From NCBI GenBank assembly GCA_903813345.2, contig CAIIXF020000009.1:11218530-11282529 (forward strand): a stretch of 64,000 nt of DNA, given 5' to 3'. Under the pieces are notes generated by a model. It made no database searches and was not told where the DNA came from. It saw only the letters and a program-made list of their open reading frames with translations. Shown here in pieces: positions 4,504 through 52,078 of the stretch. Origin of the DNA: Owenia fusiformis (taxonomy: Eukaryota; Annelida; Polychaeta; Sabellida; Oweniidae). The translations under genes and the position numbers were made by a program. The stretch's first letter is position 1. Each line of letters begins with the position of its first letter.

Positions 4504-4797
4504 AAATACATGTAATACATTTTGTGTTTCAGGTGGAACTCTGATGGGAAGTGCCCTTTTGAAGTCACTATCTGAAAAATACATGTGATACATTTTGTGT
4601 TTCAGGTGGAGCTCTGATGGGAAGTGCCCTTTTGAAGTCACTATCTGAAAAGTGCATGTAATACATTTGTGTTATAGGTGGAGCTCTGATGGGAAGTGCC
4701 CTTTTGAAGTCACTATCTGAAAAGTGCATGTAATACATTTGTGTTATAGGTGGAGCTCTGATGGGAAGTGCCCTTTTGAAGTCACTATCTGAAATAG
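4504..4797 (+). repeat. 72-bp tandem repeat spanning a splice acceptor (4 copies)
   Basis: Four tandem units begin their exon-like part at 4533, 4606, 4678 and 4750 (periods 73, 72 and 72). Each unit holds an intron end (tgtgtttcAG or tgtgttatAG) and the first 45 or so bases of exon D. The units are nearly identical, so the amplification is recent. Copies 1-3 carry in-frame stop codons just after the duplicated exon segment: copy 1 TGA, copies 2 and 3 TAA. Confidence 0.95.
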
Positions 4798-4849
4798 CAG
4801 ATGATGAAGAAGAAGTTGATCTTGCACAAGACATTGCAAAACATTCTGA
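4750..4849 (+). CDS. TRPM: TRPM exon D: helical linker, fourth copy of a duplicated acceptor
   Basis: The exon starts after ttatAG, completes the split glycine codon of exon C and reads GGALMGSALLKSLSE, then IADDEEEVDLAQDIAKHS, ending in phase 2 before GTAAGA. TRPM proteins have the matching AxALxxxK...L/A pattern followed by an acidic segment. The first 45 or so bases and the preceding intron end are repeated three more times upstream (4533, 4606, 4678), but only this copy continues into an open exon. Use of an upstream acceptor would end within about 20 codons at TGA or TAA. Confidence 0.9.
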
Positions 4850-5391
4850 GTAAGAACATAATACATGTAATTGCAAATTAAGCTTTGACCAAATGAATGA
4901 CACTGGAAAGTGATGTTTTGGTGATTTAATTAATTGATAATAATTATCACATTTCTTTAAAATAAAAGTTAAAAATATGAAATATAAACATCTTATTAGG
5001 TTATAATTTCAATAATATATACATGTATTATATGATATCATAAGAGATGAATGCTATGTCACACTACCCTACCCCATGCTGTAGCTTGTATTCCTTTAAA
5101 AGGGATACATCACAACAATACACACTAGGGGAGGGCATTTGTAATGAAAGGAGAGTTTTCAGCACAAAAATACACAGGGCTTTTCTGGTAATATTACAAT
5201 GCAAACTGCTCTATTTATACAATGTTGCTGTAGAGTAGAACACTTGGAATATATATAAAATTAAGTATACCTGCAGAAATATGGAAATGTGCAACTTCAC
5301 TGTAGCCTGTATCCATTTTAAAGAAATACAGGCCACAGTTAGGAGGTAGGGTAGTGTGTATGTCTACCTTGATTTTAAAAACTGCACATAG
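4850..5391. other. intron between exons D and E, no feature
   Basis: AT-rich sequence without recognisable gene. A short inverted similarity exists between 5060-5100 (accctaccccatgctgtagcttgtattcctttaaa) and 5300-5350, suggesting a small foldback. Confidence 0.5.
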
Positions 5392-5617
5392 GTCATGGGA
5401 AGAGATTGCATGTGGAGTCCTAAATGAATGTTACACCAGAGACAAGCAGATGTCCCACAACCTGTTGATCAGGAAACTTAACACATGGGGAGGCACCACA
5501 TTATTCTCCATAGCAGAAGAGGCTAATAAGATGGACTTCATGGGGCTATCATGCTGCCAGACTAAACTTAATAAAATATGGAAAGGCAATATGGCTTTAT
5601 ATACTTCAAACTGGAAG
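5392..5617 (+). CDS. TRPM: TRPM exon E: distal homology region towards pre-S1
   Basis: Phase 2 to phase 0 between gcacatAG and GTAAGT, 75 full codons. It includes VLNECYTRDKQMSHNLLIRK, then LNTWGGTTLFSIAEEANKMD and FMGLSCCQTKLNKIWKGNM. This matches the TRPM pattern of an E..Y..D...A..LL helix, W....CLxLA, and the conserved H/C-TQ..L...W.G. The match places it just before the pre-S1 helix. Confidence 0.96.
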
Positions 5618-5775
5618 GTAAGTTATGATTTTTGATCACACACCAAAGAAGTACAGGGTAGAACTTGTATAAAAGCGATGCATTGTATTTAGCAAATATA
5701 TAGAATTAGTGGAATTTATTTCACTGAGGTATTATTTATTCATCTGTTTTTGAAAGCTTTATTTTTGCATTTCAG

Positions 5776-5945
5776 ATATTTGCCTCCCTGTTCTTGCCAT
5801 TCTTCCTGCCTTTGATAAAGTTCTCAACAAATGACTTCACTACAGAAGGTCCCTCTGATAATAACCTTGCACAAGGTCCACCAGAGTCTAAAGGCAGCAA
5901 AGTTGATGTACAGCCCCTTGGGAATGACAATGAAGAATTTGTAAG
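5776..5945 (+). CDS. TRPM: TRPM exon F: pre-S1 helix and variable linker
   Basis: Phase 0 to phase 2 between ttcAG and GTAAGT. It starts with the hydrophobic pre-S1 segment IFASLFLPFFLPLIKF and runs into a hydrophilic linker (DVQPLGNDNEEFVR) of the kind that is poorly conserved in TRPM channels. The last 105 bases of the exon are the first unit of a long tandem array that continues into the intron, each unit repeating the exon end together with its splice donor. Confidence 0.95.
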
Positions 5946-7182
5946 GTAAGTGTCCCTTTCCGCAAGTAACCTAGCACAGGGACCACCAGAGTTTAAAGGT
6001 AGCAAAATGGATGTACAGCCCCTTGGGAATGACAATGAAGAATTTGTAAGGTAAGTGTCCCTTTCCGCAAGTAACCTAGCACAGGGACCACCAGAGTTTA
6101 AAGGTAGCAAAGTTGATGTACAGCCCCTTGGGAATGACAATGAAGAATTTGTAAGGTAAGTGTCCCTTTCCGCAAGTAACCTAGCACAGGGACCACCAGA
6201 GTTTAAAGGTAGCAAAATTGATGTACAGCCCCTTGGGAATGACAATGAAGAATTTGTAAGGTAAGTGTTCTTTTCTGCAAGTAACCTTGCCTAGGGCACA
6301 CCAGAGTCTTAAGGCAGCAAAGTTGATGTACAGCCCCTTGGGAATGATAATGTAGAATTTGTAAGGTAAGTGTCCCTTTCCACAAGTAACCTTGCATAGG
6401 GCCCACCAGATTCTTAAGGCAGCAAAGTTGATGTACAGCCCCTTGGGAATACTAATGTAGAATTTGTAAGGTAAGTGTCCCTTTCCACAAGTAACCTTGC
6501 ATAGGGCCCACCTGAGTCTTAACTCATTCGCTACTAAGGACGTGATATGACGTCATAAAGCACATACGTTGACTACTAAGGACTTGATATCAAGTCCAAG
6601 CAAAACCCCAATGTATTTTTAGGGGAATCTTGTAACCATGACAACTTATAAAATGGGACTTAAAAAACTATTCATTCTGAACGAGTATGTCATATGCTTT
6701 AAAATGATATATAACACTATATATGTATGCCCATGTATATACAATATATATTATTTCAGAGGTACCATATATGGCAATTTTCAAAATATCGTCAGTATTA
6801 TAGTGCTTTTTGCCCCAGTATTGAATGAGTTAAGGCAGCAAAGTTGATGTACAGCCCCTTGGGAATGACAATGAAGAATTTGTAAGGTAAGTGTTCTTTT
6901 CTCACAATGACTTTACCCAGGGCCCATTAGAGTCTAAAGGCAGAAGAATTGATGTACAGACCCTGTGGAATGACATTGAGGAATTTGTAAGGTACGTGTA
7001 AGTGTTAATTCCTTCCCTATAATTGTCCACAGAACCCATCAGAGTCCAAACAGCAAAGTTGGGAATGTCAATGAAGAATTTGTAAGGTAAATGTGTTTTT
7101 TTCTGCCAATAACCTTGCAAAACGCCTACTAGAAGTTGTTTGATGTACAACCCCTTGGGAATGGTAGTACAGTGTTTGTAAG
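5841..7182 (+). repeat. 105-bp tandem repeat spanning a splice donor (about 10 copies)
   Basis: Exon-end-plus-donor copies end at 5945, 6050, 6155, 6260, 6365, 6470, 6886, 6992, 7086 and 7182. The period is exactly 105 for the first six; the 416-base step to 6886 is explained by a 311-base insertion. Copies 2-4 are almost identical and later ones decay, losing clean donors (GTACGT, GTAAAT, GTATGT). Reading through the first donor gives an immediate TAA, because GTAAGT in this phase supplies it. Copies 5-7 also carry a TAA in place of the exonic lysine codon after the ES of PPES. Confidence 0.96.
6523..6829. mobile_element. piggyBac-like MITE, copy 1, with TTAA target duplication
   Basis: A 307-bp insert lies between two TTAA tetranucleotides (6519-6522 and 6830-6833). 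Its ends are inverted: CTCATTCGCTACT at the left, GTATTGAATGAG at the right. Removing the insert and one TTAA restores the seventh copy of the flanking 105-bp repeat exactly, which shows the empty site. TTAA duplication and ends of this type are typical of piggyBac MITEs. It contains no coding capacity. A perfect 18-bp palindrome (GGACTTGATATCAAGTCC) lies near the left end. Confidence 0.9.
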
Positions 7183-7600
7183 GTATGTGGTAGGCAATGT
7201 ATCTAGTCCTGCCGTTGCCCACATCTAAAGGTTCAAGTATTAAGGACTTGTTGCAGATGGGCAGTTTATTATGCAAGGTGTGTTAGGAATTGTCCCACCT
7301 CAAAGATGTACAGACATAGGCTATGGGTGATAGAAATCATTTTTAAATAAAGATGGCATGGTAATCGATCTGTGTTTATCTCTGTTTCCCTGTGCAATGA
7401 ATAAATAAATAAAAATGATGGCAGAGTCACCACTAGTCTACACTCCTGCCATCTTTCTATTGACTTACAACATAAAATATTCTTACATAAGCAGTCAATC
7501 TATAAATATTCCGATGACTAGGATGTAGACAATTACATTGTCATATTCAACTTCCTTGTATTCACAATTGTCACTCAAGCAATTTACTTTAACATTGCAG

Positions 7601-7711
7601 GTATGGGAGAAACTACCAGGTATCTGCTTTGGAGACTGTGTACAGCAATAAGAGCCCCCCTCCTTTAAGAGATAGATTGAAATTGGAAATTAATGATATA
7701 TGTTATGATGA
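7601..7711 (+). CDS. possible TRPM cassette exon between exons F and G
   Basis: A good acceptor (aacattgcAG) opens a stretch that is in frame after exon F and reads like protein: YGRNYQVSALETVYSNKSPP, then LRDRLKLEINDICYDE. If it ended at 7711 its length would be 111 (37 codons) and it would join exon G in phase. However, the only suitable donor is a poor GTCCTT. Reading on, it reaches TGA about four codons later, so it could also be an alternative last exon or chance. Direct splicing from exon F to exon G is fully in phase without it. Confidence 0.3.
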
Positions 7712-7752
7712 GTCCTTTAATTGATTCTTCAAATGATATTTTCTTATTTCAG

Positions 7753-7897
7753 GTCTAAATCTCGGAGGAAGAGAAAAAGACTGACTCGGAAATTGTACAC
7801 AGTCGCCTGCGGGTCAGGTGCCCAGGGGTCAATCAGTGTATTCAGTGCCATCTATTATTACCATACAGCACCAGTCACCAAATTCTCTTATCATACA
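7753..7897 (+). CDS. TRPM: TRPM exon G: region leading into S1
   Basis: Phase 2 to phase 0 between tttcAG and GTGAGT. It starts with a very basic stretch (SKSRRKRKRLTRKLYT) and ends with AIYYYHTAPVTKFSYHT. The latter matches the hallmark TRPM sequence F/Y-Y-x-A-P-x-x-K-F immediately before S1. The basic part could contact lipid head groups at the inner membrane face, which is an inference. Confidence 0.93.
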
Positions 7898-8022
7898 GTG
7901 AGTAATTAAATGATATTAAATATTCAAATGAATATCACATTATTCAAACAAAAATATTTATGTAGTTTGAACAAAATCAAATTGTAAATATAGAATCATG
8001 TTGATAAATAATACTGGGTTAA

Positions 8023-8335
8023 CTCATTCAATACTGGGGCAAAAAGCACTAAAATACTGAAGAATTTTTGAAAATTGCCATATACATTGTATGGTACCTC
8101 TGAGATAATATATAAAATATATACATGGGCATACATATGTAGTGTTATATATCATTTTAAAGCATATGATATACTCTTTCAGAATCAATAGGTTTTTTAA
8201 GTTCAATTTTATAGATTGTCATGGTTACAAGATTCCAAAAAATACATTGAGTTTGTGCTTGGACGTGATATCACGTCCTCCGTAGTCAACGTATGTGCTT
8301 CAAGACGTCATATCACGTCATTTGTAGCGAATGAG
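8023..8335. mobile_element. piggyBac-like MITE, copy 2, opposite orientation
   Basis: A 313-bp second copy of the same family, again between TTAA tetranucleotides (8019-8022 and 8336-8339) but inverted relative to the copy at 6523-6829. Its palindrome reads GGACGTGATATCACGTCC. It lies in the intron between exons G and H. Confidence 0.88.
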
Positions 8336-8573
8336 TTAATAATGTAGCATTAAAAAAAAAATTAGGATTTAAAATTTTGACTTTTACAATATTGAAGGAC
8401 ACATGTCATACATCCACACAAAAGCTCACATTAATTGTATAAACACTAGCTAAATAAACTTGAAATATGTATGTATCTCACATATCATACAAAAAAGAAT
8501 GAAACTATGTCAGTGTTCTATTTTAGATATCTTACATCATATATCATACCTGAGTATGTTAGTGAAAACTTCC

Positions 8574-8650
8574 TGTGCCAAGGGCTGACGTGAAAAAGTC
8601 AGCCCTCCCAAGTGTGGATCAGACCCACAACCCCTTGCTTGCTCAATGAT
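8574..8650 (-). repeat. possible SINE fragment with hairpin
   Basis: Contains a perfect 9-bp stem (agggctgac / gtcagccct). On the minus strand it has a stretch gtgggtctgatccac that loosely resembles a tRNA-type B box. No A box or tail could be identified, so the call is weak. Confidence 0.3.
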
Positions 8651-8689
8651 TGCTCATCATATCATACATAAATGCTGTTTCTATTTCAG

Positions 8690-8833
8690 ATATCCTACAT
8701 TGTATTCTTGGGCATGTTCACATTCTTCCTACTTACTAACCTCAGACCTGTGACGCATCCTGACTCCCCAAGTTTCTGGGAAATGTTGGTGTGGGGCTGG
8801 GCTGCTACTATGTTTGTTGAAGAACTGAGACAG
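8690..8833 (+). CDS. TRPM: TRPM exon H: S1 and first half of S2
   Basis: Phase 0 to phase 0, 48 codons. The hydrophobic run IVFLGMFTFFLLTNL is S1. After a loop with PVTHPDSPSFWE comes S2, ending in FVEELRQ. The E and Q of this E-x-x-Q arrangement correspond to two of the four residues that coordinate activating Ca2+ in TRPM2, TRPM4, TRPM5 and TRPM8. Confidence 0.97.
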
Positions 8834-9347
8834 GTAAGAAGAAAATAATGCTTTCTGAAGTCAGGGTCAGGGGGTCATTATCAGAAACTTAGTAAAAATT
8901 CAGAAATCTAAAGTCTAATGTTCCCTTTACTTTGACTTCATTTTATCTTACAGTAAGTCCAACTCTTCAAAGAATTTGAGATATTTTTGGCTGGGGTAGG
9001 ATTCAATTTTCCAAAAATTAAGAAGAAATGATTGTGAGACATCATTCAGTAGTTTTGCAGTAAGGCCACAAAAACTACCTAAACTAACCACATAAATTAA
9101 AATCCAATATATCATTTTGTATCGCAATATATTTTCCGTATGGCCCAGTAACTCATATGAACAGTTGACAACTCATACCACCTGATGAATTTTCAACTGA
9201 TACAGCTCATACTAACGTAGATTAGTATAACCAATGTCTTACCAGCTAATGTCTTACCACCAGATCCTCTTGATCAAAAAAAAAACAAACATGTAAAAAA
9301 CTATGAGTGGTTGTCTGCAGTAAAATGGAACAAATTTTTATTTTCAG

Positions 9348-9605
9348 TTCCTCACGAAAGACACAACCTCTGTCAAATACAAATTCTCTGGCTACTTCAG
9401 TAATCTTTGGAATGCCTTTGACCAAGGCATCTACATCATGCTCCTCATCTCTATCATTCTCCGCTACACCCTGCTGGACGAGGAAGACTTCAAATGGGCA
9501 AGGAGGTTCTACAGCATCACTCTCGCCATGTTCTTCGTTCGCTTCATGCATATATTTTTCGTTGAGAAAAATCTGGGACCAAAAGTTATCATGATTAGGA
9601 GAATG
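9348..9605 (+). CDS. TRPM: TRPM exon I: S2-S3 loop, S3, S4 and S4-S5 linker
   Basis: Phase 0 to phase 0, 86 codons. YFSNLWNAFDQGIYIMLLIS is S3 and carries the N-x-x-D pair that completes the TRPM2/4/5/8 Ca2+ site. SITLAMFFVRFMHIFFVEK is S4 and NLGPKVIMIRRM the S4-S5 linker; both are very close to the TRPM2 pattern (LRLMHIF....LGPKI). S4 has a single arginine rather than an array, as expected for weakly voltage-dependent TRPM channels. Confidence 0.98.
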
Positions 9606-9671
9606 GTGAGTCCTTTGTTTGTGACTTTAGATTAGAATGGTGAAAACAAAACTAAACTCTATAAACCATAG

Positions 9672-9852
9672 TAAAGGCAGAGTCGGGTCTGAAGGGGTTG
9701 ACAGAATTTCAAGCAACATGGAACGGTTGATCAACAAATATATATTCCTTAAAATCTCAAAAATAATATCTCCCAAAAGATCTGGGATATATTATGAATT
9801 GGTAAATGAAATGATTATTCATTGGATAAGTGAATTGTTTAAGCCTTTCTAT
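9672..9852. mobile_element. truncated MITE, family of the element at 37341
   Basis: Starts taaaggcagagtcgggtct and shares a long internal match with 37341-37500, including atatctcccaaaagat and attggt. The right inverted end seen in the other copy is absent. It fills most of the small intron between exons I and J. Confidence 0.7.
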
Positions 9853-9918
9853 TAAGTATCTGTACTCAAAGGCATTGTATACCTCCCCTATTTAATATAT
9901 GTACATGTTTATTTTCAG

Positions 9919-10093
9919 TTGACTGATCTGCTGTTCTTTATTGCCATATTGCTGGTATTCATATTAGCATATGGTGTTGCTAGTCAAGCGTTGAGGTACC
10001 CCAATGCGCCAGTAAGCTGGAACTTACTCAAAGACATTGTTTACCTCCCCTATTGGCAAATGTATGGAGAACTCGAACTTGCTCTAGTTGAAG
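9919..10093 (+). CDS. TRPM: TRPM exon J: S5, pore helix and filter
   Basis: Phase 0 to phase 1. LLFFIAILLVFILAYGVASQ is S5, with the TRPM-typical GVA.QA. After WNLLKDIVYLPYWQMYGELE come the pore helix and selectivity region. YGE aligns with FGE/FGQ in other TRPM members; a glutamate here, as in TRPM1/3/6/7, favours divalent permeation, which is inferred. The pore is cut by a 14-kb intron directly after this exon. Confidence 0.97.
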
Positions 10094-10117
10094 GTAGGTT
10101 GATTTTAGTACTTATTC

Positions 10118-10208
10118 AGGGCTGTATTCAGGATGGTAGTCAGGGGTGTGGTCAGGGGTGTAATCAGGGCTTTAGAAAAGGGTGTAGTCAGGGGTGTTAT
10201 CAGGCATG
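10118..10208 (+). repeat. 13-bp minisatellite at the start of the pore intron
   Basis: About seven imperfect units of a 13-base motif like tcaggggtgtagt begin some 25 bases after the exon J donor. The repeat keeps the exon J frame open for 39 codons past the donor, so the open frame there is not evidence of coding. Confidence 0.8.
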
Positions 10209-11118
10209 ATCCAAAATGCTTTACCATTTTAGGCTAAAAATTAAAGAAATTCCTCAGATCAAGTTTAATGCTGTCTTCTTGTTACCACCAAAAGGTCACC
10301 AAGGCATTCAATCAACTTCTGTCTTTGACCATCTTTGCATTTGATCAATTTTGTCCACAGTATTTGTATGAAATGAAATCCTGAGGCTGTTTTTCATGAC
10401 ACAATTTCCAAATATCAAATGTTTATTTTGATCTAACCCAACTGTTACAGTTTAAAAAGACAATTGATTGTCAGGAGTTTTTATTCATAATGTGTCAAAA
10501 TTCTTCCTCTTCTTCTGAGAACACATTAGGTTGTACAAACACCTGGTTAAATTCGCATGCATGATGTATTTTCAGTTGTTATTTTAATGTTTTATGGAAT
10601 TCAAGAAACATTAAAGGCCTATAAAGAGGCATAGTGTGGGCTATTAGTAGTGTGTGTTTGGGCTTTGGCCATTATTCGCATTAAGAAATTTTGATCAATA
10701 GAGTAAGCCATTTTAGTTCATTACAAAGTGATTCATACTTGAAAATTATTAAGAACATACGAGTCTTTAAACTAATATAGCTTTGGCTTTGATGTTACGT
10801 CTGAGTAAAATCACATTGCCATAGACCTATCTAGATTTAGAATTCTAATAATTCAACATCAAAAATTTATAAGAAAAGTTGGTGTAACTTTTCACTTTTT
10901 CTCATTATGGACTCGCAGAAAACAATATAAGGGGTCATATCAAAACTTTGTTACCTGACACATATACATTACACACTCCAAACCCCCTCCCTCCTCCTTG
11001 GAACAGACAGATATGTTGATAAAGCCTGTGGAGTTACCCAAAAACTGATAGTGTAGAAAACAAATATTGCTTTTATGTTCATAAGTTCACATTAACAATA
11101 TTTTAATCACACCAGAGC
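10209..11118. other. intronic DNA, no gene seen
   Basis: Start of the 14-kb pore intron. Unique-looking AT-rich sequence with no open frame of note and no repeat structure recognised. Confidence 0.5.
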
Positions 11119-11482
11119 CCTCATTATCCGGTCAGCGCTAAATTAGCGTTGCGATTTGCGTTGCGCTTGCGAATCAACATTATTTGCAAGCGCAAATCAT
11201 GGTTTGCGTCGTATTACGCGCTTCACGCAAACGCAGACGCAACGCAGACGCAACAGTATGCTAATCGCAAATAAATTGGAAACGCGGGAAATTTAAACTT
11301 AGAGCTCAAAATAGATTTATCGATTTTCTAATGTCTATGTATATGTTTACGCCAGTGCGGATGTGTCAATCCCATACTTGGACGTGTTATAGGTACATAA
11401 AGCTGGTTTGTAAAAACTTTTATTCCATACTTAGTAGTGTTATAGGTATATAACATGCGGGAATATAACTGAATATGTGACG

Positions 11483-11512
11483 TGAGCGGGAGATATATAT
11501 ATCTCCCGCTCA
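11483..11512. repeat. perfect 30-bp palindrome
   Basis: tgagcgggagatata followed directly by its exact reverse complement. An acgacgtcataa stretch follows 10 bases later. Confidence 0.9.
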
Positions 11513-11599
11513 GCAGATCTACGACGTCATAAATTCAGGGAGTAGATACTGAGCCAGGGGACTTTGCTATTATTCCTCACAATCTACTAAGTATAGAAT

Positions 11600-12660
11600 A
11601 AATCAGTTATTAAATGCTCGATTTTTGATACAGGGTATATCCCTCGGTAAATACAATATATCAACCCTCGGTCCCTACGGTCCCTCGGGTTGATATATTG
11701 TATTTCCCTCAGATATACCCTGTATCAAAAACCTCCCATTAAATAACCTCTATATATTTTCATAAGCGTTCAGATATAGCTATACGTCCCGCTCTGAGCG
11801 GGCAGATATAGTATATCTGCCCGCTGACGTCATAATCGCCGTTCGCATATTGGTTCATTTTTGTAACATGCGCATAATTACTGTAAACGTTAATGGAGAA
11901 AAGGCAGACAATCGCGATCTGTTTGAAGGAAGGAAATGAGCGTATCCCTGTTAAACAAGGATTTCAGAAATAAATGTGGATGAATATCTGAAAATCAGAC
12001 TATTCTAAATGAATTCTGAACTCCGGCCAATTGAACAGCGTGAACAAAATGACCAAGATTGGTATGGGATAAACAGATCATCCTATAGTTCAATATCCTG
12101 AACCTCATATAGGATAATCTCTATTTATCCCATGATACTACTATTTCCCGATGAATAACCGGGAATATTTTTGATATTGAGAAAAAATCGTATTGAAAAT
12201 TTTTGCCAAACAAAGCTTCCTCTTTCAATCAGTTGGGTCGATATAGTATGCTAAAATGATGTTCTGTGAAAAACGAATTCCAGTTTTATCATCATCGCTC
12301 TGACACAGACAAAAATGCTTACGTATTGCTGAATGTTTTGATGTTGATGTGTTTATGTTACACATGTACAATAATTTTTTTTAAAGCTAAGTCATATTTT
12401 CTTGATTAAATATACCATTTTTTCATAGAAAAATCTAACTAATGATTTTATGAAGACAGTTATGAATATCATGGAATAAAAAGCTAATTTACTGGTCGGG
12501 ATTAAATATGGGTTTATTCCTCATGACAATTTGATATATCACATATTGTGAGGGACAATTTGGTATTTCCCTCTGACCCTCCGGGCTCTCGGTAAATATC
12601 ATATTGTCCATCATAATAAAACCCATATTGAATCCCTCCCACTACATAACCTATATATAT
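11600..12660. repeat. three related foldback elements inside the Harbinger element
   Basis: Foldback 1 (11622-11731) has arms tttttgatacagggtatat and atataccctgtatcaaaaa. Foldback 2 (12063-12133) pairs tatgggataaa with tttatcccat. Foldback 3 (12505-12630) pairs aatatgggtttatt with aataaaacccatatt. Outside the arms all three have a flank of the type GGTTATTTAATGGGAGG on the reverse side, so they look like members of one small family. Confidence 0.7.
11797..11825. repeat. perfect palindrome with CRE-like neighbour
   Basis: Arms of 14 bp (agcgggcagatata and its reverse complement) around a single central G. TGACGTCA, a consensus cAMP-response-element core, begins at the last base of the right arm (11825-11832). 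Confidence 0.9.
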
Positions 12661-12747
12661 CTTGCGAAAATCTAGATCTGTCACTGGAAGGCAGCCCATC
12701 TTGAAAACAAGACACGGTGTCTTTGTAATTAGTCCGACTGATATAGC

Positions 12748-13080
12748 CTACCTAGAGAAAACCGCCGATACCTCAGCAACAATGTTCGAAACAGTAGGTT
12801 GGGATACCCCGAATATATCTCCATTTATCATTTGCATACAACCTGTAGCATAAAATCGTAATGAAATGAATACTTTTAGCTGACATGGAATTGCCTGAGG
12901 ATTCCTTGTTCTTGACGCTAGATCCCCATCTAATATATTAATCAACTCAAGAATGAGTGGCCTCGGCATGCGATATCTGTTTAATATCTCATCGTCAGTC
13001 ATCTCTAACGGCTGACTCCTGTCTCTGAATAAGCGTAAACCTCTTCTATTGTGAACATCCTGGAATAATATGCACCACAT
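12748..13080 (-). pseudogene. HARBI1-like transposase, N-terminal fragment
   Basis: 110 residues with the order typical of HARBI1-like nucleases: a conserved FRDRSQPLEMTDDEILNRYR segment, an R-P..L.LI..L helix, then LRFYATGCMQMINGDIFGVS and QPTVSNIVAEV. These are the helix-turn-helix and G-D-x-x-G-x-S-Q/x-S signature. The frame ends shortly after, before any of the catalytic DDE aspartates, so it cannot encode an active nuclease. A foldback insertion lies just downstream at about 12480-12660. Confidence 0.85.
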
Positions 13081-13689
13081 TTTCCAGCTTGATCGAACCC
13101 TAATATTTTAATTTTAGCAGACGATATTTGCGAAATGGAATTGCGATATTTATTATAGATTTCACAAAACCAAGGTAGCATAATCGTGCACTTTCAGACT
13201 TGATTTTGATAAGTTTTGGTTATTTGTGTCTCTAATGTTTTTCAACCTATTTTTAGTTGGATGTCTCAAAGGGCACTTCCTAGATTTCTAAAACGATAAT
13301 GTTAATTTAAATAGGAAAACTATCAAGATTCTTGATGATATGTTTGCGATTTATATTGCGGCAGGGTCAGGGATGCCGCAAATAAAGTGGAGTTTGCGAC
13401 ATAAAAATCAACTGATTTACGTGGACGCAACTGTGCGATGACTGCATAATACCAATTTGCGTGCGGTTAGCAGTGTATTTGCGATGCGAAATGAAAATAG
13501 CGATGCGTCTACCGTGTAATAAGAAAACTGCGATTTGCGCTAAAGACGCAAAACGGCAATGAATTTGCGCTAGAGTGCCTTTGAGATGACCTCATAATAT
13601 CGTTTTGCGTACGATTCGCTAAATATTTACGTTGCGATTGCGATTTGCGGTGCGTCGACCGGATAATGAGGCCTCAGGTCCTATAGAAA

Positions 13690-14370: not shown

Positions 14371-15663
14371 TATCCCACCGAACGAAGTTCGAGAGGGATA
14401 TAGGAAAGCTGTCCGTCCGTCCGTCCGTCTGTTTGTCCGGGCGGTTACTCAAATATCATTTCACCAATTTGATTCAAATTTTATAGGCTTATGCCTTATG
14501 GGTGTAGGACCTCTGCTCGAGAAGGAATTTGCAATATGGCCACTGAATTCAAAATGGCCGCCATTTTTCGTAAAAAATGTAATCTTTAATAACTCAAATA
14601 CTAGTTTGCGGATTTGGTTCAAATTTTATATGCTGATGCCTAGGGACAAAGGAGTTTCGCACAAAAAGAGATTTTTAAGATGGCCGCTTAATTTCAAAAT
14701 GGCGGCCATTTTTCGTAAAAAAATGTAATCTTTGATAACTCAAATACCAGTGAACGGATTTGGTTCAAATTTTATATGATGATGCTTAGGGACACAGTAG
14801 CTATGTTCAACAAAACATTTTCAAGATGGCCGCTTGATTTCAAAATGGCGGCAATTTTCCGTAAAAAACATAATCTTTGATAACTCAAATACCAGTGAAC
14901 AGATTTGGTTGAAATTTTATATGATTATGCCTAGGGACACAGTAGCTCTGTTCAAGAAATAATTTTCAAGATGGCGGCTGAATTTCAAGATGGCGGCCCA
15001 AATTCCTTAAAAAACGTAATATTTGATAACTCATATGCCAGTGAACGGATTTGGTTCAAATTTTATATGCTGATGCCTAGGGACAAAGGAGTTCCACACA
15101 AAAAGAGATTTTCAAGATGGCTGCTTAATTTCAAAGTGGCGGCCATTTTTCGTAAAAATATGTAATCTTTGATAACTCAAATACCAGTGAACGGATTTGC
15201 TTCAAATTTTATATTATAATTATTAGGGACACAGTAGCTATGTTCAACAAAACGTTTTCAAGATGGCCACTTAATTTCAAAATTGCGGCAATTTTTCGTA
15301 AAAAACGTAATCTTTGATAACTCAAATACCAGTGAACAGATTTGATTGAAATTTTATATGATTATGCCTAGGGACACAGTAGCTCTGTTCAAGAAATAAT
15401 TTTCAAGATGGCGGCTGAATTTCAAGATGGCGGCCCATATTCGTAAAAAACGTAATCTTTGATAACTCATATACCAGTGAACAGATTTGGTTCAAATTTT
15501 ATATGATGATGCCTAGTTCACAATGGTATAAACTAACTTTGTGCCAAATTTCATGCTTCTATCTCAAAGTGCACAAACATTTTAACATTCACACTAGCTA
15601 TAATAAGCATAATATGTTTTGTTCGATGGGATTTGCTACTCCGTGGAGTTGCTGTTTTTCTAG
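14371..15663 (+). mobile_element. Helitron/pearl-like non-autonomous element with tandem core, copy 1
   Basis: The left end is tatcccaccgaacgaagttc, with internal complementarity (CGAAC/GTTCG, TCCC/GGGA), followed by a (CCGT)n microsatellite. The core is about seven monomers of roughly 145 bp, each with gataactcaaatac, ggatttggttcaaatttta and two aagatggcggc/aaaatggcggc motifs. The right end is gctactccgtggagttgc (hairpin) plus tttttCTAG before a T, the hallmark 3' end of Helitrons. Bivalve pearl elements have this layout. No Rep/helicase gene is present. Confidence 0.8.
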
Positions 15664-21430: not shown

Positions 21431-21449
21431 TCATGCTCTCACCAAAATC

Positions 21450-24047: not shown

Positions 24048-24204
24048 GTGAGCTTGAAGGTTGTACGTCTAATGAAACAATCTGGAGAAATGACCCAGAG
24101 GCGGAGAGATGTCCTGAAGAATCGTCACTGGCCATCATCTTATTCGCCATCTATATGATGGTCAGCAATGTGCTGCTCCTTAACCTGCTTATTGCCCTCT
24201 TCAG
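24048..24204 (+). CDS. TRPM: TRPM exon K: outer pore loop and S6
   Basis: Phase 1 to phase 2. GELEGCTSNETIWRNDPEAE then RCPEES is the extracellular pore loop. Its two cysteines and CPE match TRPM2, where they form a disulfide, and NET is a possible N-glycosylation site. S6 is ILFAIYMMVSNVLLLNLLIA followed by LF, a near-exact TRPM2-type S6. The exon end and its donor are repeated five times in the intron. Confidence 0.97.
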
Positions 24205-24339
24205 GTAGGTCATTCTTATTGCCCTCTTCAGGTAGGTCATTCTTATTGCCCTCTTTAAGTAGGTCATTCTTATTGCCCTCTTTAGGAAGGTCATTCTCAT
24301 TGCCCTCCTTAGGTTGGTCATTCTTATAGCCCTCTTCAG
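24188..24339 (+). repeat. 27-bp tandem repeat spanning a splice donor (exonic copy plus 5)
   Basis: The last bases of exon K (cttattgccctcttcag) and the donor gtaggtcatt repeat with a 27-base period, ending at 24204, 24231, 24258, 24285, 24312 and 24339. Donors are GTAGGT, GTAGGT, GTAGGT, GAAGGT (broken), GTTGGT and GTAGGC. Reading past the first donor gives an immediate TAG. Confidence 0.95.
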
Positions 24340-24673
24340 GTAGGCCATCCTTGTAAAACGAAAACTCAAAAAGATAGAACAGAGATATCCCATTTCTGAA
24401 TACCTCTTAATTTGAAAAATATCACAAATTCAAATTCAGCAATGGCTTTGAGTTACATTATTTCTATTTTCATTTATTCTTAATAAGTTTAAATAAGGAA
24501 ACTGAGAAACAACTTTATTAGTTTCGTTTTAAATACAAATGAAAAAAAGAGAGTCATTTAAATGTAAGCAATGTCATTATGGTACTGATATCAGTTGTTA
24601 TCTTTTTATGAGCCTAGACAGGAAAACTGGCCAAAGTGGCCTTATTGTATTTAGACTCTGTCTTTTAAATTAT

Positions 24674-25381: not shown

Positions 25382-25800
25382 GTAAGTGACATTTTGCGTG
25401 TTAATTTCTTGACTAATTATACACAAACATTGACTCCGATATTGTTACCAAAGTGATATATCTTGAAAGCCTGTGATTATGTATTGGAAATGAAGCAGAA
25501 CTCATGCAATACTTTTTTTTGTTTTCAATAAATGATTTTGTTTACAGTAAATGGTTGTGTTTGCTCTTCCTAAAAAATAAGCTTAAAGACGATCAGGCAG
25601 ACTGGCCATCTTTCCCAAAAAAAATAATTGTTGAATAAATAGACTTTGCAATCTATAATTTATAGCTTTAGGTATCCAAAATATTGACGCCAGTTCTTTC
25701 GTTAAATTCATTGGAAATTGTGTTGCAACAATATATCTTGAAAGCCCATGATTAGGCATTGGAAATAGAGCAGAAATCAATACGTTAAGATTTTGTTTTC
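25382..25800. other. intron after exon L, no gene
   Basis: AT-rich, with no supported feature except a near-duplicate segment (atatatcttgaaagcc near 25456 and 25732). Confidence 0.5.
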
Positions 25801-26212
25801 AATAAATGATTTTGTTTTCAGTAAATGATTGTGACAAAGTGTGTTTTTCAATAAGTGATTGTGACACAGTGTGTTTTCAGAAAATCATTGTGCCTTAGCG
25901 TATTTTCAGTAATTGGATGTGCCATATAATGTTTTCATTAAATCAATGTACAGTGAGTTTTGAATGGATTATTGTGCCATTTTGTGTTTTCAATCAATAA
26001 TTGTGCCAAATTGTCTTATCAAGAAATGATTGTGCCAAATTGTGTTTTCACTCAATTGTTGTTTTCGATAAATGATTGTACCAAATTATGTTTCCAGGAA
26101 ATGATTGTGCCAAAGTGTACTTTCAATTAATGATTGTGCCAAAGTGTATTTTCAATAAATGATTGTGTCAAATTGTGTTTCCATGAAATGATTGTGCCAA
26201 ATTTTGTTGCAG
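25800..26212 (+). repeat. degenerate 28-35-bp tandem repeat running into the exon M acceptor
   Basis: A dozen or so diverged units of the type ttttcaataaatgattgtgcc plus aaattgtg. The last unit becomes gattgtgccaaattttgttgcAG, so the acceptor of exon M lies inside the repeat pattern. Several units contain ttttcag, a possible decoy acceptor. Confidence 0.85.
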
Positions 26213-26345
26213 AGAAATACCTTAGCAAAGAGGAATATAACAAACTCACAGCATTTGAGAGAGCAGGCATGGAAGAATATCTACTACATGCACAACAATT
26301 GCACCATGAGCACATTGAGAACAAAGTCAGCGCAACTGGAGAAAG
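26213..26345 (+). CDS. TRPM: TRPM exon M: post-TRP connecting helix
   Basis: Phase 1 to phase 2. KKYLSKEEYNKLTAFERAGM followed by EEYLLHAQQLHHEHIENKVS matches the TRPM segment L..eE...L..fE....e.Yl, a charged helix between the rib helix and the coiled-coil pole. Followed by GTAACA. A 25-kb intron begins here. Confidence 0.94.
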
Positions 26346-36670: not shown

Positions 36671-36672
36671 TA

Positions 36673-43465: not shown

Positions 43466-43729
43466 AAATCATATGAATTTTTTTGGGCCCCTAAAACCAA
43501 AATGTGGGCCCAAATTTTGAAATTTTGAGGCCCATTTTCTTCAAAATTTGGCCTAAAATTAAAAAATAAGGCCTTAGAAGGCCCATTTATGACCAAAAAG
43601 GCCCACTTTTTGGGGCAACAAGGCCTTTTTTGGCTCACAAATTTTTTTGGGCCCAATTTTTTTTTTCTGGGCCCACCCGAGGGGGGGGGGCCCGGGCCCC
43701 TGGGCCCCCCCCCCCAGATCCGCCAGTGC
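43466..43729 (-). repeat. GGATCTGGG...GGCCC interspersed repeat, copy 2 (reverse)
   Basis: Many ggcccattt/ggcctaaaatt motifs and a G-run/C-run block (43680-43716), then agatccgccag. The minus-strand open frames here are repeat artefacts. Confidence 0.7.
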
Positions 43730-44430
43730 TGTACATCCTCTAATCACAGTAATCAGATAGTTTGAGCAAGAAAATGTATGTATGACGTGTTTTACATTAT
43801 CGTAGGATCTACATGTAGTAATTTTGAAAATCAATCTCTTCTCCTTAAATGTTAAAATCGTGATCAAGGAAGGGATGTTTGAGAGGCTTTCATAACTCTT
43901 CATCATGTTTCATTTCCATGAAAACCCGAATTAAGAAATCATGACTTTCACTTATAATAATATTGATTGGAAGCTAATCATGAAACAGAGTAGGCGAAAA
44001 GTATCATTTATTTCATGTTAATATATATTCAGAATATTTGTTCAGCTATAAAGTGTGGTGTTCATTAAAACCCACAGGGCTTAAGCATAGAACTTCGAAG
44101 AAGTACTTACTATAATTAAATGCACAATTACATAGAGCTTCACACAAGAATATAAAATACAGTATATAATGTTCAGCTTAAAATTGTTATGTTCAGTAAA
44201 ACCCATAGAGACAGTACTGTATTTCGAAGTTCATAGTTATAACTAAATGCACTGATCATAGTTAAAGATTCTTGAGTAATAATGACTTGCATAAGAATAA
44301 TTTTATTGATATAATTTTTTTATTGCACTTAAATCCCACGCTACTTGAGGGCATTCAATGAAGGGGGAATTTCTAGCGATGTGATTGGTTAATCTAATGT
44401 AAATACAGTCGTATATTATCATCCCATATA

Positions 44431-45560
44431 GGCGAGTAGGCCAAGCCTCAGAAGTCCATAAATAAAGGAGTTTAATAGTCGGCTGACCCTATAGGATATT
44501 TTGGTATCGTTGGAAAGCTGAGATATTGACCTGTAATATGTGATAGATATCTACTTTGAAAACAGGTGACGTTACCATGGAAACGGGCATTGAACAATAG
44601 TTATACTTAATAATAACTAAATACCCATTTCAGGTTTATGTGCACCAAATGATAAAAAATTTCTCCCTTTTAATGCGTAAATGGTGAGAATTCAATAGAG
44701 ATTGGTAAATCTTGAACATTTGTGACTAAATTTGTAGTATAAAACAGTTATAATTTACATTGTGACATCACAATTGTGAAATTCAAATAGAAAACTGTTT
44801 ATTTCATTTGGTCTCCTTTAATCCAATTCATCGTGTAATTATAATTTAGATAAAATATCACCTTCATGTATATCAAATGAAAGCTGCTTTTCTTACAAAT
44901 ACGTTGGTATACGAAACAAAAGGATTGGACAATCACCCACTGAGATATAGCATATTTTGCTCTGATTAAGCAATGGCCAGAACTTCTGAAATCTACTCTA
45001 ATGGCACAGGTTTAGCACACAGTTTGTGAATTTCAATACCAAAACACATTTTAATTGTCTTATAACTTTAGATATCTGTGGCCCTTTGGATTCGTTTTGG
45101 TCTCATTTCAATAAAGAGGTATATATCTAAAATGTATGATATTGACTCATTTGAAAAGCATGTATTGTTACCATGGAAACAGGTGTTGAATAGGAGGTTT
45201 CATTATTAAGAATAATGCATTTATATTCATTATTAGTTGGTGATCTAGTGAAATACTGTGAATACAAATGAAGTGATCCTATGTGGATCCTATGGATAAA
45301 ATTGGTATGTTCGAACAGTTACCACTTTGTTCTTGTAGACATAGGGATAGATTTGGATTATAACTGAAATGGGGTTTGTTGCTATGGAAACGCTTGTCAA
45401 ACAATATATGTCATTGATATGAGTAAAATATATAAAACAATTTGTTCGCATAGTTAACATTATGATTGTGTATTCTTTCAGTGCCTAATGTGAGGATATT
45501 GGTGGATTTGATTGATATTGACCATAAGTGGCTAATTAAGTTCAGTTAATTGAAGTGTAT
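44431..45560 (+). repeat. GGCGAGTAGGCC repeat with ~600-bp monomers, copy 1
   Basis: Starts ggcgagtaggccaagcc, then gaccctataggatattttgg, gttaccatggaaacgggc. A second monomer carries accatggaaacaggtgttga at about 45170. The same element occurs in reverse at 49850-51165. The right boundary is approximate. Confidence 0.7.
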
Positions 45561-46036
45561 ATATGCTATGTGATGTCACAATGGTGAATTTTGATTAAGA
45601 TAATTGAAAATCAAAATTAATTACCGCAATTAATTGTGAAATTTCAATTTTATTGGAATGTGACCGTGTTATATATCATATTAAAGCTACTGGTCTATTG
45701 ATTTCAGTGATATATAAAAGTAATATGATCAGTTTGATATATGTGGATATAACCCTTATTTCTTTCTGGTGTATCAGTACTGGCTACAATGGCTAAATTG
45801 ATCTGTTTTGGCACAAACAGATTCTCGATTTGTTAATACTGAATTATTTAAACTATTGATAAGAATGTGCAGAAAACTAATATTTGAATATTCTCAGTTA
45901 CTTTATGAAACTTTCAAATATTTATATTTTAATGATCTTTCTTTCAGATGACCTAATTTCAAGAATATCCCTTCTTCACTTGAGATTTGTTCTATCCAGG
46001 TATAACATCGAAATATAGGTAACAGTACTAAAACAA

Positions 46037-47370
46037 CTAGAAAACAGCAACTCCACGGAGTAGCAAATCCCAACGAACAAAACATGTTTTGGTAAATAGC
46101 GGCCATATAAAATTTGAGCCAAATCCATCCACTGGTATTTGAATTATCAAAGATTGTGTTTTTATGATGCTTGGTTGCCATTTTGAAATTCAGCTGTCAT
46201 CTTTAGATTTTTTCTTTAGCAGAGCTCCTTTGTCCCAAGGCATCAGCATATACAATTTAATCCAAATCTGTCAACTGGGACTTGAGTTATCAAGGATTAC
46301 ATGTTTAATGAAAAATTGTGGAGATTTCGATAAATAGCAGCCACCTTGAAAATTTCTTCTCAAGCAGAACTCCTTTATCTCTAGGCATCAGTATATACAA
46401 TTTAAAGTTAATACGTCCAATGATATTTGAGTTATCAAGATTACCTTTTTTATGAAAAATGGCAGCCATTTTGAAATTCAGCTGACACCTTTGATATTTC
46501 TTCTGAAGCAGATCTCCTATTTCCATAAACATCAGGATACAAAATTGGAACCAAATCCATCCACTGGTATTTGAGTTATCAATAATTGTTTTTTTACGAA
46601 AAATTGCGGCCATTTTGAAATTCAGTGGCCATCTTGAAAATGTCTTCTTGAGCAGAACTTTTTTGTCTCTAGGCATCAGCATATAGAATTTGAACCAAAT
46701 CCATCAACTGGTATTTGAGTTATCAGAGGTTATATTATTTTATGAAAAATGGCGGCCATTTTGAAATTTAGCTGCCATCTTGGAAATCCCTCCTCGAAAC
46801 AGAGCTCCTATGTCCCTAGGCATCAGTATGTAAAATTTGAACCAAATCCATTCAATGGTATTTGAATTATCAAAGATAACGTTTTTACGAAAAATGGCCG
46901 CCATTTTGAAATATGGTGGCCATCTTGAAAATGTCTTCATGAGCAAGGCTCCTTTGTATCCAGGCAACAGCATATGAAATTTGATCCAAATCCATTCAAT
47001 GGTATTTGAGTTATCAAAGATAAAGTTTTTTTTACGAAAATATGGTGGCCATCTTGAAAATGTCTTTTTCAGCAAGGCTCCTTTGTACCCGCGCAACAGC
47101 ATATAAAATTTGAACCAAATCCATCAACTAGTATTTGAGTAATCAAAGATTATATTTTTTCGAAAAATGGCCGCCATTTTTAATTTATCAGCCATATTGA
47201 AAATTCCTTCTCGAGCAGAGGTCCTACACCCATAAGGCATAAGCCTATAAAATTTGAATGAAATCCATCAACCGTTATTTGAGTTATTGCCCGGACACAA
47301 GAACGGACGAACGGAGGGACGGACGGACAGCTTTTCTATATCCCCCTCGAACTTCATTCGGTGGGATAAT
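46037..47370 (-). mobile_element. Helitron/pearl-like non-autonomous element, copy 2 (reverse)
   Basis: Reverse-orientation copy of 14371-15663. The 3' end is CTAG with hairpin gcaactccacggagtagc at 46037-46066; the 5' end is gaacttcattcggtgggata at about 47350-47367, next to a (GGAC)n microsatellite. About nine monomers lie between. Open frames here follow the repeat. Confidence 0.8.
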
Positions 47371-47479
47371 AATTTCTCCAAACTTAATACTGTAGAGTTA
47401 CCTAGTTAAACGTTCAGCTGCTTAGAACTAGCAATCTACCCATTAGAGTAGGTCACCAAGGGTCCATAACAGCTCCACA

Positions 47480-48175
47480 TGGCAACAGCTCCCATCAAAT
47501 GCTCGTCTGTATTGATCGTTTGACCTTAATATGACCTTGGCCAAGAAACATTGACTTTGACTTCAGGTCACTTAATCATGAGTCACTGAGGGTTACAGTA
47601 TCCTTCAAGTAAGTGTTGAACTTTGTTCTTGAGATCTTGACAAATATAATGTCGACCTTAACCCGAAGGTCGCCTAGTCATGGGTTGCCAAAGATCACAA
47701 CAGCCCACCAGGCTCTTAAAACACCAAATATCTAAATATCAACCTTTGATCTTGGTATGACCTCAGGTCACGTAATCATGGGTCGACAAGGGTCACAATA
47801 GCCCTTAAGGTACTTACTTAGATAGCAACCCTCGACCTTGACCCATAAAAATTGACTTTGACCTTAGGTTACTTAATCAATGGTCGTCAAGGGTCACAGC
47901 AGCCCCAAGGACCTTACATCACCAAATATCTAGATATTGACCTATGATCTTGGAATAACCATGACCTCAAGTCACCTTTTACCTTTAAATGACTTTAACT
48001 CTGATCTTCGTAGAATGTCCACCAATCCACTTAGTATGTTGACCAAGTATGGGAGCTCAGGTTCAAACGGTCTAGGCGGAGGAGATGTCTGGACAGACAG
48101 AGAATGACAGACAGACCACCATACTTCATACATGCTGACCCGATTTGTACCCTAATAGGTATTAGGGTATTAGTG
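47480..48175. mobile_element. tandem element rich in TGACCTT/AAGGTCA
   Basis: About five diverged monomers of roughly 130 bp (gaccttggccaagaaacatt, caccaaatatctagatattg, aatcatgggtcgacaagggt). It ends with an (ACAG)n tract and a palindrome-like ccctaataggtattagggt. The layout is like the other pearl-like elements. Confidence 0.65.
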
Positions 48176-49849
48176 TTGTGTTTATAGCCCCTAGTGCTTC
48201 CTAGTTGGCCTTAGAGAATATCCTTGAAGATCCAAAATAGTGGAACCATAAAGGACTAAAGACAGATCTTCATCTTTTGGTTCAGAGTTTGAACACAGTT
48301 GACAAAATTCAGTTCTTTTGTATGGTGATGAAGATTTAGATAATTCATTAAATGAAAAATTAATAGAACTAATGAGCCATTTTGTGGATCAAAGTTTGAG
48401 CCAAATTGATTGGTTTGCTTGGCTAATTTTTACATGCATGTGTTAACTCATCCCTGGCCCATGGGATTATAGTTTCTTATCTGAATTATAACATTACTTT
48501 GATGAATTTCTAAATGTTAAATCATGCATTCCTATTCATATTGTCTAAAATTGCCGCTAATGTTTTTTATAAAAGTTTGGCAATCAATTGCATGTCTATA
48601 ATTGTTAACTAAAGGAATAAATCTATGTATAAAAAAACAAAAAACAAAGACAGTTCCTTGAAGGAGGGCCTTCGTTTTTTCAATGATGGAAACATTAGGT
48701 CCAAATAAGACTTTAATGATTTCCATACATCTGATGGTGTCTGCTTAGAAGGTCCTGATTGGCATTTAGAATCTTCTGAATAAGGGACAGTGGCTTCATA
48801 GAAGGCCCAGTACCAGCACAACAGTGATTTCAAGGAAGACTCTTGTAGATTACTACATGGTCATGGTTGTTCCATAGAAGGCCACAGTGGTATCCCGTCA
48901 ATCCATAGCAGTTCGCATTTTTGTTCCACAAAAGGCCCTATCCCTGGTTGTGCCTAGATAGACATTGTCCTTAGCTCAAATAATTCCCATTTAAAACATA
49001 GCAACTCCCATTTAAAACATAGGCGATGCCAGAACCAGAATTTGATTTATATAATAAACACAGTATTCCTAACTTGATTGAATGATAAATTCTTATGAAA
49101 TCATTCTTTAAAATTGTTGATTGTATACAAATTAAATTGTTAATTATTTTTAAAGTATATTTCACATTGTAAGATTGATACTTATCCAATAGTCGACTAC
49201 ATGAAAAGAATCCTCAAATAATCATGAATTTATTGAAGGAATATTTTTGCAGACTTTTTGAGGTCATGTGAACATGCCGTACAGTATGTGAAGTTATCAT
49301 GGATGATTGGCTCAATGGAGTGCAACATTGATATTTTTGCCATATATGGACATGTCGTGATTTCAAAATTTGAAGGCTGAACCAAAGTAGAAATATGCAT
49401 TAGTTTCTCATTTGTACGCATTTCAATAACAAAAATATTTATAATCGACTTCACAAAAAAATAATTCTTGTGAAAAATTATCCCTTGCAAATACATCTCG
49501 ATGAATTCCGAAAGTGGTATAATTAGTCTTCACAAAATTTATATAAGAGGGGGTCCAAAAGTTTTGAACGCCCTGCTATTTTTTTAATGAACATGAAACT
49601 TTCAAATCATTAAGAACAATTTATAAGTTTCACCGAAAAATAATTTATTTTGGGTACTTTTCTAAATCGTTTCTAATAAAGAGACCAAGCCAATCGGAAT
49701 TAATGAATATAATTATTTCTAAATCACGCCCATGTCCAAAATGAGTAAAACAGTTTAGTGCAGCTTTAAAAAACACCAAAAGTTGTAAATCATTTATTAT
49801 AATGACATCACAATAGGAGTATTTACTTAAATTAGTGACTTTAAATGTT
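48176..49849. other. intronic DNA, no gene seen
   Basis: Includes a weakly repetitive stretch 48640-48960 with recurring agaaggcc(c/t) blocks. No coding signal. Confidence 0.45.
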
Positions 49850-51165
49850 TATAAAGCTTTGTCTGATATGAGACATACATGACAACATACCGTATGTACT
49901 GAGGAAAACACCTTTCTTGCGACTTTCAGACTCATCGATCAGGATAAAAAGTTGTTCCACCTCTCCCGAGACTAGCATAAAAGATGTTAGTCTCAGACCT
50001 CTCATACAGTATTTTGTGTCTATAACCACTGATACCCCAGATTCAAAGCATGAAACCACGGCATAGCTTGATCTAATCATGTTGATTTACTTATCATAAT
50101 ACTCGTTATTGCACCAGCTTTAATTTGATATCCATGAAGTGCATATTCTTTTGCAATTGTAATCATGGAAGATATCAGTTTCACGGATACCATGTAAAGC
50201 AAACTGTTTCTCATTTGAAATCTGCTATTGTGATGTCACAATAACACTTTAAAATTTAATATATAGAATCATTTAGTCATTATAGTTCAAGATTGATAAA
50301 AATTGGCCATTTCCACACAATTGCTATTAATAAAATATACATATTTGGATCACTGGCTGGAAATGCCCATTCCTATACGTATTTCAATCTTATTAAGGAT
50401 ACCTATTGCTCAACGCCCGTTTCCATGGCAACGGCACCTGTTTAAACACTAATCATATATCACACATCATAGACAGTTGTCAAAGCTTTGCATTGATACC
50501 AACTTTTCTCATAGGGTCAAAATACTACTAAAGTTATGATATCAATAAGAGTGTATACAATGGTAGAAATTCGCCAATATTTTGTCATTTGTGATAATGC
50601 CTAACTGCTGATAATTTCTGTAACTCAGGCTACAATTTGAATCACCTTATATCATAATATCTCAAAGAGTAAATGATCAATGTTTACAATTTATATACCA
50701 AAATGATCGTGAGAGCAGTAGCTTTCATTTGATATACATAAAGGTAACATTTGTAAGCAATTGTGATTACACAATCTAATGGTGTTAATAATTTCATATG
50801 AGACCAACTGTTTTTCATTCAAAATATACCATTATGACATCACAATAATCAAAATAGAGTAGAATATGTATAATTTTGAGTTAAATGTTGAAGATAAACT
50901 AAAATTCTTTCAATTCCTTAATTTTCATTCTTTCAAAGTTGCACATTGACTTAACCAGATATCCCTTGCAATGGTGCTGTACATTTTATTCTTATTAAGG
51001 ACATCTTTTGTTCAACGCCCGTTTCCATGACAACGTCACCTATTCCAACACAAATTATTTATCACACGACATAGACAATTCTCTGAGCTTTGCTATGATA
51101 CCAAATTTTCCCATAGGGTCAGTTGAACTATTAAACTCATATTTTATTTCTTTGGCCTACTCGCC
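49850..51165 (-). repeat. GGCGAGTAGGCC repeat with ~610-bp monomers, copy 2 (reverse)
   Basis: Ends ttggcctactcgcc at 51165. Contains two clear monomers in reverse: caacgcccgtttccatg at about 51014 and again at about 50412, each with cccatagggtca or tcatagggtca. The outer left boundary is approximate. Confidence 0.7.
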
Positions 51166-51243
51166 TAATATTACAGACGTAACAGCGATACTTTGACTTC
51201 TAAGACATCTTTTTCTGAATTATGACATCACATGTCCTCATCA

Positions 51244-51440
51244 TCTCAACCAACCAACCATACAACCCCACTGAATGACGTACCAACCAAACCAACCAAC
51301 CCAACGGAATGACTGACCTACCATCCAACCAACCAACCTGACCAACCAACTCAACCAGCCAACCCAACCCAACTGACTGACCCAACCAGCCAACCCAACC
51401 CAACTGACTGACCAACCAAACCAGCCAACCAACCAACCCT
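51244..51440 (+). repeat. (CCAA)n-rich simple repeat before exon N
   Basis: About 200 bases of ccaaccaaccaacc and cccaacccaactgactgacc variants, ending about 40 bases before the exon N acceptor. Minus-strand tryptophan-rich open frames are artefacts. Confidence 0.95.
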
Positions 51441-51481
51441 TGTTTAACATTGCCATAAATAGCTCACTTATCTACTTTCAG

Positions 51482-51628
51482 GATTGAAAAAGTTATTGAA
51501 GATCTGGAAGAGATCAAGGAACAAGTGGTGACATCTGACAGCAGTGTCCCTACACTAGAATTTGACCAAGCTGTGATGGTACAACAACTTGGTGCTACAC
51601 CTCATGAGCAGCCTGATCCCATTGAAAG
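51482..51628 (+). CDS. TRPM: TRPM exon N: C-terminal coiled coil
   Basis: Phase 2 to phase 2 between ctttcAG and GTACCT. IEKVIEDLEEIKEQVVTS has hydrophobic residues at heptad spacing, as expected for the TRPM C-terminal pole coiled coil that holds the tetramer. It is followed by a flexible acidic segment ending HEQPDPIER. The exon end with its donor is repeated downstream. Confidence 0.87.
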
Positions 51629-52078
51629 GTACCTGTTTTTAGATTTTCAAAGTGTAATTGAGTTACAAATAATGAGTATTTTGCTTATGAAGGGTAGTAA
51701 GTTAACTCTCTGCACTAGAGATTGACCAATAATAGTAATTCAACAACTTGGTTCTACACCTCATGAGCAGCCTGATCCCATTGAAAGGTACCTGTTTTTA
51801 GATTTTCAAAGTGTAATCGAGTTACAAATAATGAGTATTTTGCCTTTGAAGGGTATAAAGTTAACTCTCTGCACTAGAGATTGACCAATAATAATAATTC
51901 AACAGCTTGGTGCTACTTCTCATGAACAACCTGGTCCCATTGAAAGGATGGGTATTTGAATAGCAAATGAGTATCTTGCATATGAATGAAGTAAGTTAAC
52001 TTCCATATACACTAGAGTTTGTCAAAACCATAATAGTAAGTTAAAAGCTCAATTGGTGTAGCCTGATCCCATTGAAAG
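51529..52078 (+). repeat. 159-bp tandem repeat spanning a splice donor (4 copies)
   Basis: Copies of the exon N end (gcctgatcccattgaaag) finish at 51628, 51787, 51946 and 52078. The first two periods are 159. Donors are GTACCT, GTACCT, GATGGG (broken) and GTTTTG. Reading past the first donor stays open for 32 codons and then meets TGA before the second copy. Confidence 0.93.

Follow-up and report, generated by a model that had tools for sequence, protein, structure and literature searches.

Four exon-intron borders of a single TRPM channel gene in Owenia fusiformis are crossed by tandem arrays, and these arrays are very probably ordinary minisatellites whose birth and expansion happened to start on exon-intron borders and which have been tolerated since their copies leave with the intron. 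The window, by which we mean the whole stretch of 64,000 nucleotides that was analyzed (G000 C9:11218530-11282529), contains 14 exons of the gene, A to N, on the + strand. In our exon annotation, the frame across the 14 joined exons is open, with no stop. The top PDB match of the joined protein is 6co7 (E 1e-104), and the other matches include TRPM3, TRPM1, TRPM5, TRPM4, and TRPM2; the TRPM3 match (E 3e-94) covers residues 25-725 of 737. Similarity to TRPM channels was found in both the cytosolic and the transmembrane parts, which identifies the gene as that of a TRPM cation channel. Its N-terminal half lies outside the window. The N-terminal TRPM homology domain (LSDAT, PF18139) is matched at seven sites elsewhere in the genome, none of them on C9, and no TRPM exon was recognized when the open frames in the 20 kb upstream of the gene were checked by eye; this region was left out of the counts.

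TRF returns 62 rows for the window, which merge to 30 arrays occupying 10,728 of the 64,000 bases. Taken with the exon annotation, these place arrays over the acceptor of exon D (4 copies) and over the donors of exons F (10 copies), K (6 copies), and N (4 copies). The features concerned are listed below in window coordinates.

4128-4268, + strand: TRPM exon C (exon annotation)
4750-4849, + strand: TRPM exon D (exon annotation)
5776-5945, + strand: TRPM exon F (exon annotation)
24048-24204, + strand: TRPM exon K (exon annotation)
51482-51628, + strand: TRPM exon N (exon annotation)
4497-4794, + strand: D acceptor array, 72 bp x 4.1 (TRF and exon annotation)
5862-6522, + strand: F donor array, 105 bp x 6.3 (TRF and exon annotation)
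6523-6829, unstranded: element of about 307 bp flanked by TTAA, within the F array
6830-7203, + strand: four more F copies, of which the last three have clearly diverged (donor-motif search)
24188-24352, + strand: K donor array, 27 bp x 6.1 (TRF and exon annotation)
51582-51947, + strand: N donor array, 159 bp x 2.3, with a fourth copy at 52078 (TRF and exon annotation)
25789-26208, + strand: 29-bp array that stops 4 bases short of exon M, which begins at 26213 (TRF)

The original prediction of four junction-crossing tandem arrays in one TRPM gene was thus borne out by TRF and the exon annotation, and a 30-mer test gives the same answer. Only 4 of the 28 window junctions, namely, the D acceptor and the F, K, and N donors, have an identical 30-base copy (30/30) within 1.5 kb, and the best local copy of the remaining 24 junction-centered 30-mers reaches at most 22/30. 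Each tandem unit consists of an exon end and its splice site, with a few decayed copies that are missing the GT, and the exon-adjacent copy retains its GT or AG in all four arrays. The D acceptors lie at 4533, 4606, 4678, and 4750 (spacing 73/72/72), the last being the intact exon's own. The F array runs as six regular copies, the TTAA-flanked element, and then four copies with donor-like sites at 6887, 6992, 7087, and 7183 (spacing 105/95/96); the element has an inverted relative, 88% identical, about 1.5 kb downstream (~8019-8338). Among the five extra K copies, one is without the GT and one without the G that precedes it, and one of the three extra N copies (array spacing 159/159/132) is likewise without a GT. 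The description of the arrays as internally fresh consequently holds in part; the inserted element and three diverged copies at F, together with the K and N copies that lost the GT, do not fit it.

The 29-bp array beside exon M was considered as a fifth junction array but does not qualify as one, as the similarity of the acceptor to the repeat unit is not significant (P 0.12). The acceptor of exon H has a weaker copy (22/30) at 8512-8541, 163 bp upstream of the real site, which is perhaps an older junction duplication. Elsewhere in the window, two tandem arrays of about 145/291 bp that are rich in AAGATGGCGGCCAT-like words (14467-15516 and 46104-47287) are apparently related and lie in opposite orientation. 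Open frames in two pieces at 58785-60029 resemble a mariner-type transposase, and an open frame on the - strand at 12751-13107 resembles a Harbinger-type transposase.

Translation of the extra copies speaks to what their use would entail. With exon F extended to a distal donor, translation runs into a stop at 5947 for all five donors tested, and extension of K to a distal donor meets one at 24206, each beginning two bases past the exon end. Exon N, when extended, meets a stop at 51723, ahead of the second N donor, and use of any one of the three D acceptors upstream leads to a stop after 17 residues. To judge from these translations, use of an extra copy should truncate the reading frame, and the array should be unable to add in-frame protein length. 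Because every extra copy translated yields a premature stop, the divisibility of the periods by three is without coding meaning. The main periods had been noted as multiples of three, with the caveat that this may be chance: the regularity is not strict (spacings of 73, 95, 96, and 132 bp occur), and the caveat stands, given that only two of the periods of nine further junction-crossing arrays (34, 61, 67, 16, 87, 39, 38, 89, and 52 bp) are divisible by three. The read-through stops and the seven periods that are not divisible by three rule out a meaningful multiple-of-three rule. Mutually exclusive duplicated exons are ruled out as well, since each copy has a single splice site and only a portion of one exon.

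Arrays of this geometry recur in a paralog of the gene. The acceptor of exon K in the C2 TRPM paralog is the end of a 10,076-bp array of 113.2 copies of 89 bp (C2:33661449-33671524), the most unusual example met in this analysis. It contains 113 acceptor motifs, and its units, each composed of an acceptor and part of the exon, are about 99% alike; the 106 units of exactly 89 bp fall into 12 types, and 82 of them equal the consensus. Translation of the first, 51st, and 112th copies ends at a stop after 29 residues in each case, and from the last copy it opens into the K exon. In the same paralog, the acceptor of the next exon, L, is crossed by a 38-bp array of 4.3 copies. A 25-bp array in the C5 paralog reaches 2 bases into exon L at its acceptor and was counted as abutting, not crossing, the junction. 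The array-bearing junctions thus differ from one TRPM paralog to another. The C1, C2, C5, and C10 paralogs that were examined all have the K-L intron at the same place and in the same phase, and none of the four has a TRF array over its K donor, from which we conclude that the K array of the window arose after the K-L intron. The shared intron also rules out, for K, the creation of an intron by AGGT duplication. In the C1 paralog, the sequence roughly 30 bp past the K donor is diverged but similar to the end of exon K with its donor, and on this resemblance it may be a decayed second donor copy.

For comparison outside the family, we assembled a sample of 65 exon loci (213,078 bp) from three unrelated families, with 25 myosin, 20 SLC6/SNF, and 20 dynein loci, using 120 distinct family matches that are a selection among the matches listed. 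Its 186 junctions were predicted with a home-made splice score whose weights come from recall. According to TRF, arrays cross 6 of these 186 predicted junctions: three at donors (34 bp x 4, 16 bp x 3.1, and 39 bp x 2.7) and three at acceptors (61 bp x 4.5, 67 bp x 1.9, and 87 bp x 5.9). A further case lies in G000 C1, where an exon assigned to the Muted (BLOC1S5) family (PF14942, E 5.9e-15) is trailed by 29 exact copies of the donor word AGGTAAGT in steps of about 52 bp (C1:2575188-2576699; the middle of this array lies outside the fetched sequence). The junction-crossing geometry is therefore not peculiar to the TRPM gene of the window. Separately, one myosin gene (G000 C9:37986009-37994334) has twelve consecutive matches that all fall on roughly one part of the myosin head (profile positions about 18-84), likely an alternative-exon cluster.

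The original prediction had raised two readings of the shared geometry, a junction-prone mutational process and tolerated splice-site redundancy. In the former, duplications at or near junctions are seeded by a process linked to splicing or transcription, such as R-loops or replication stalling at the edges of exons; we regard this reading as quite improbable, and two direct tests speak against it. For the placement test, the 65 sample loci were merged to 54 stretches (189,269 bp) with 77 arrays, and under a stricter null, in which arrays may not cover or lie within whole known exons, 6 arrays cross a junction vs 10.26 expected (P(>=6) 0.97, P(<=6) 0.07). In the window, with 30 arrays, 4 cross vs 1.19 expected under the same null (P 0.029), and free random placement puts 2.46 over a junction (P 0.23); neither of these P values is a clean test because the gene was picked for looking unusual. 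The second test scored local duplication of 30-mers at a level of at least 27/30. In the sample, 3 of 186 junction 30-mers are duplicated, compared with 47 of 1649 in introns and 2 of 280 in exon interiors; the corresponding window counts are 4 of 28 at junctions, 42 of 260 in introns at set distances, and 4 of 56 in exon interiors. By neither the crossing test nor the 30-mer test is there a junction excess over intronic duplication in the 186-junction sample. The original prediction had named arrays equally frequent at intron positions as the outcome that would tell against it, and this is what was observed, within a small sample of 186 junctions. Of its two readings, tolerated redundancy fits, as the exon-adjacent GT or AG is kept and the extra copies translated run into stops, and the junction-prone process is unsupported.

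Several counts do lean toward exon edges. Arrays on the intron side that lie 0-149 bp from the junction and do not cross it are in excess, with 18 in the sample vs 9.95 expected (P 0.008) and 8 in the window vs 1.58. Over 231 junctions, array ends are concentrated near the exon, with 10, 11, 8, and 11 in successive 50-bp bins between -50 and 149 and 0-6 per bin from there to 599, where the far bins are shortened by unrecognized exons in the loci and the C2 K acceptor is not binned. Intron 30-mers of the window are duplicated in 99 of 526 cases within 200 bp of a junction vs 541 of 5307 beyond 200 bp, but in the sample those 40-160 bp from a junction are duplicated no more than distant ones (27/30 level). 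Junction arrays are more frequent in the window (4/28) than in the sample (6/186; Fisher P 0.028), and the same is true of the TRPM family, chosen after the fact, at 6/45 (P 0.015) or, if the abutting C5 array is counted too, 7/45 (P 0.005). The 45 family junctions are the 28 of the window and 17 paralog junctions placed by motif, the C2 K acceptor included; further junctions in the fetched paralog pieces were left out, and the paralogs alone give 2/17 (P 0.14). The donor word AGGTAAGT forms 666 doubles at 20-50 bp per 19,109 singles (3.49%), 1.9-3.2 times as often as three control words of equal composition (1.85, 1.57, and 1.10%). However, hand counts among the matches listed put the doubled loci at 27 for the donor word vs 20 for one control word listed to the same place (P 0.06), and triples at 4 donor loci vs 12 control loci in C1 plus the first 29.6 Mb of C2; the 449 triple matches of the donor word vs 362 of the reversed word are a weak difference to which a few large arrays contribute many. 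Together with what may be a decayed second K donor in C1, these counts make a modest exon-proximal bias of arrays possible. The farther-reaching proposal, that splice junctions seed their own satellites via transcription- or splicing-linked duplication at exon edges, which then grow to more than 100 near-identical splice sites, is unlikely; if true, such junction-seeded satellites would be a natural test of how the spliceosome chooses among identical sites.

That the copies are functional, as redundant or alternative sites for regulated splicing or as a means of dosing the channel via nonsense-mediated decay, is very doubtful. Seven of the ten F donors retain a full GTAAGT, and in human IFI6 downstream repeat units are reported to be used as donors (PMC4526556). 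But the F copies were found via a donor-motif search, which inflates their apparent conservation; the GT is lost in one K and one N copy, every distal copy translated gives a stop, and paralogs do not bear arrays at the same junctions. An assembly artifact, with copies collapsed or falsely expanded, is extremely unlikely. The mostly identical units of the 113-copy array are what such an artifact would resemble, whereas the copies in the window differ from one another and one array holds an inserted element, which makes misassembly unlikely there, and similar arrays are present in other genes.

The reading that we favor, tolerated minisatellites on exon-intron borders, could come about as follows. 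If a local tandem duplication had one of its breakpoints in the exon and the other in the intron, the exon would stay intact next to a functional splice site, and the extra exon edge and extra site would end up in the intron. The array would then grow by slippage or unequal exchange and decay as intron DNA does. It would persist, as the exon-adjacent copy would still be used and the rest would be spliced out; an array would be tolerated since the site next to the intact exon functions and the others are removed with the intron. Under exon definition, the acceptor and donor flanking an exon are paired. This would be the simplest selector, given that the exon-adjacent site alone has a full exon beside it. 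We infer that the arrays are neutral, that exon definition selects the site, and that slippage or unequal exchange expands the array. Even if neutral, the arrays are natural experiments on splice-site choice, with dozens to more than 100 copies beside one intact exon and, among the copies translated, an open frame only from the exon-adjacent one. RNA from array-bearing genes could tell whether exon definition or first-site scanning governs the choice. In addition, the arrays indicate that spare splice sites can build up in introns, where they are raw material for alternative splicing.

Tandem repeat units carrying splice donors were reportedly described in a 1995 paper cited in PMC4526556 and PMC2572611, to go by its title and a citing passage. 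Junction-spanning tandem repeats are already in print, and the arrays of the window belong to that kind; open-licence full texts yielded human and plant relatives and no junction arrays of the 113-copy order. In human IFI6, repeat units are said to serve as alternative donors that give three mRNAs (PMC4526556). The Owenia arrays share with IFI6 the tandem units with splice donors, but the units are said to be used as donors there, whereas distal use is predicted to give stops here, and here acceptors are arrayed too, in up to 113 copies. In human genes within segmental duplications, internal tandem repeats are described at the borders of exons and introns, with 162 alignments counted as containing them and, on manual inspection, 27 intron modifications (PMC2812944). 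There, as here, repeats at exon-intron borders differ between paralogs, but those repeats alter the exon-intron structure or create novel introns, whereas in the window gene the K array is younger than the K-L intron and the frame through all 14 exons remains open. Tandem duplication is also discussed as a route to introns, with the potato RdRp gene as a case (PMC4974935). The likeness lies in the tandem duplication of a segment that contains AGGT or an intron-exon structure; the difference is that at K no new intron is formed, and the copies lie inside an existing one.
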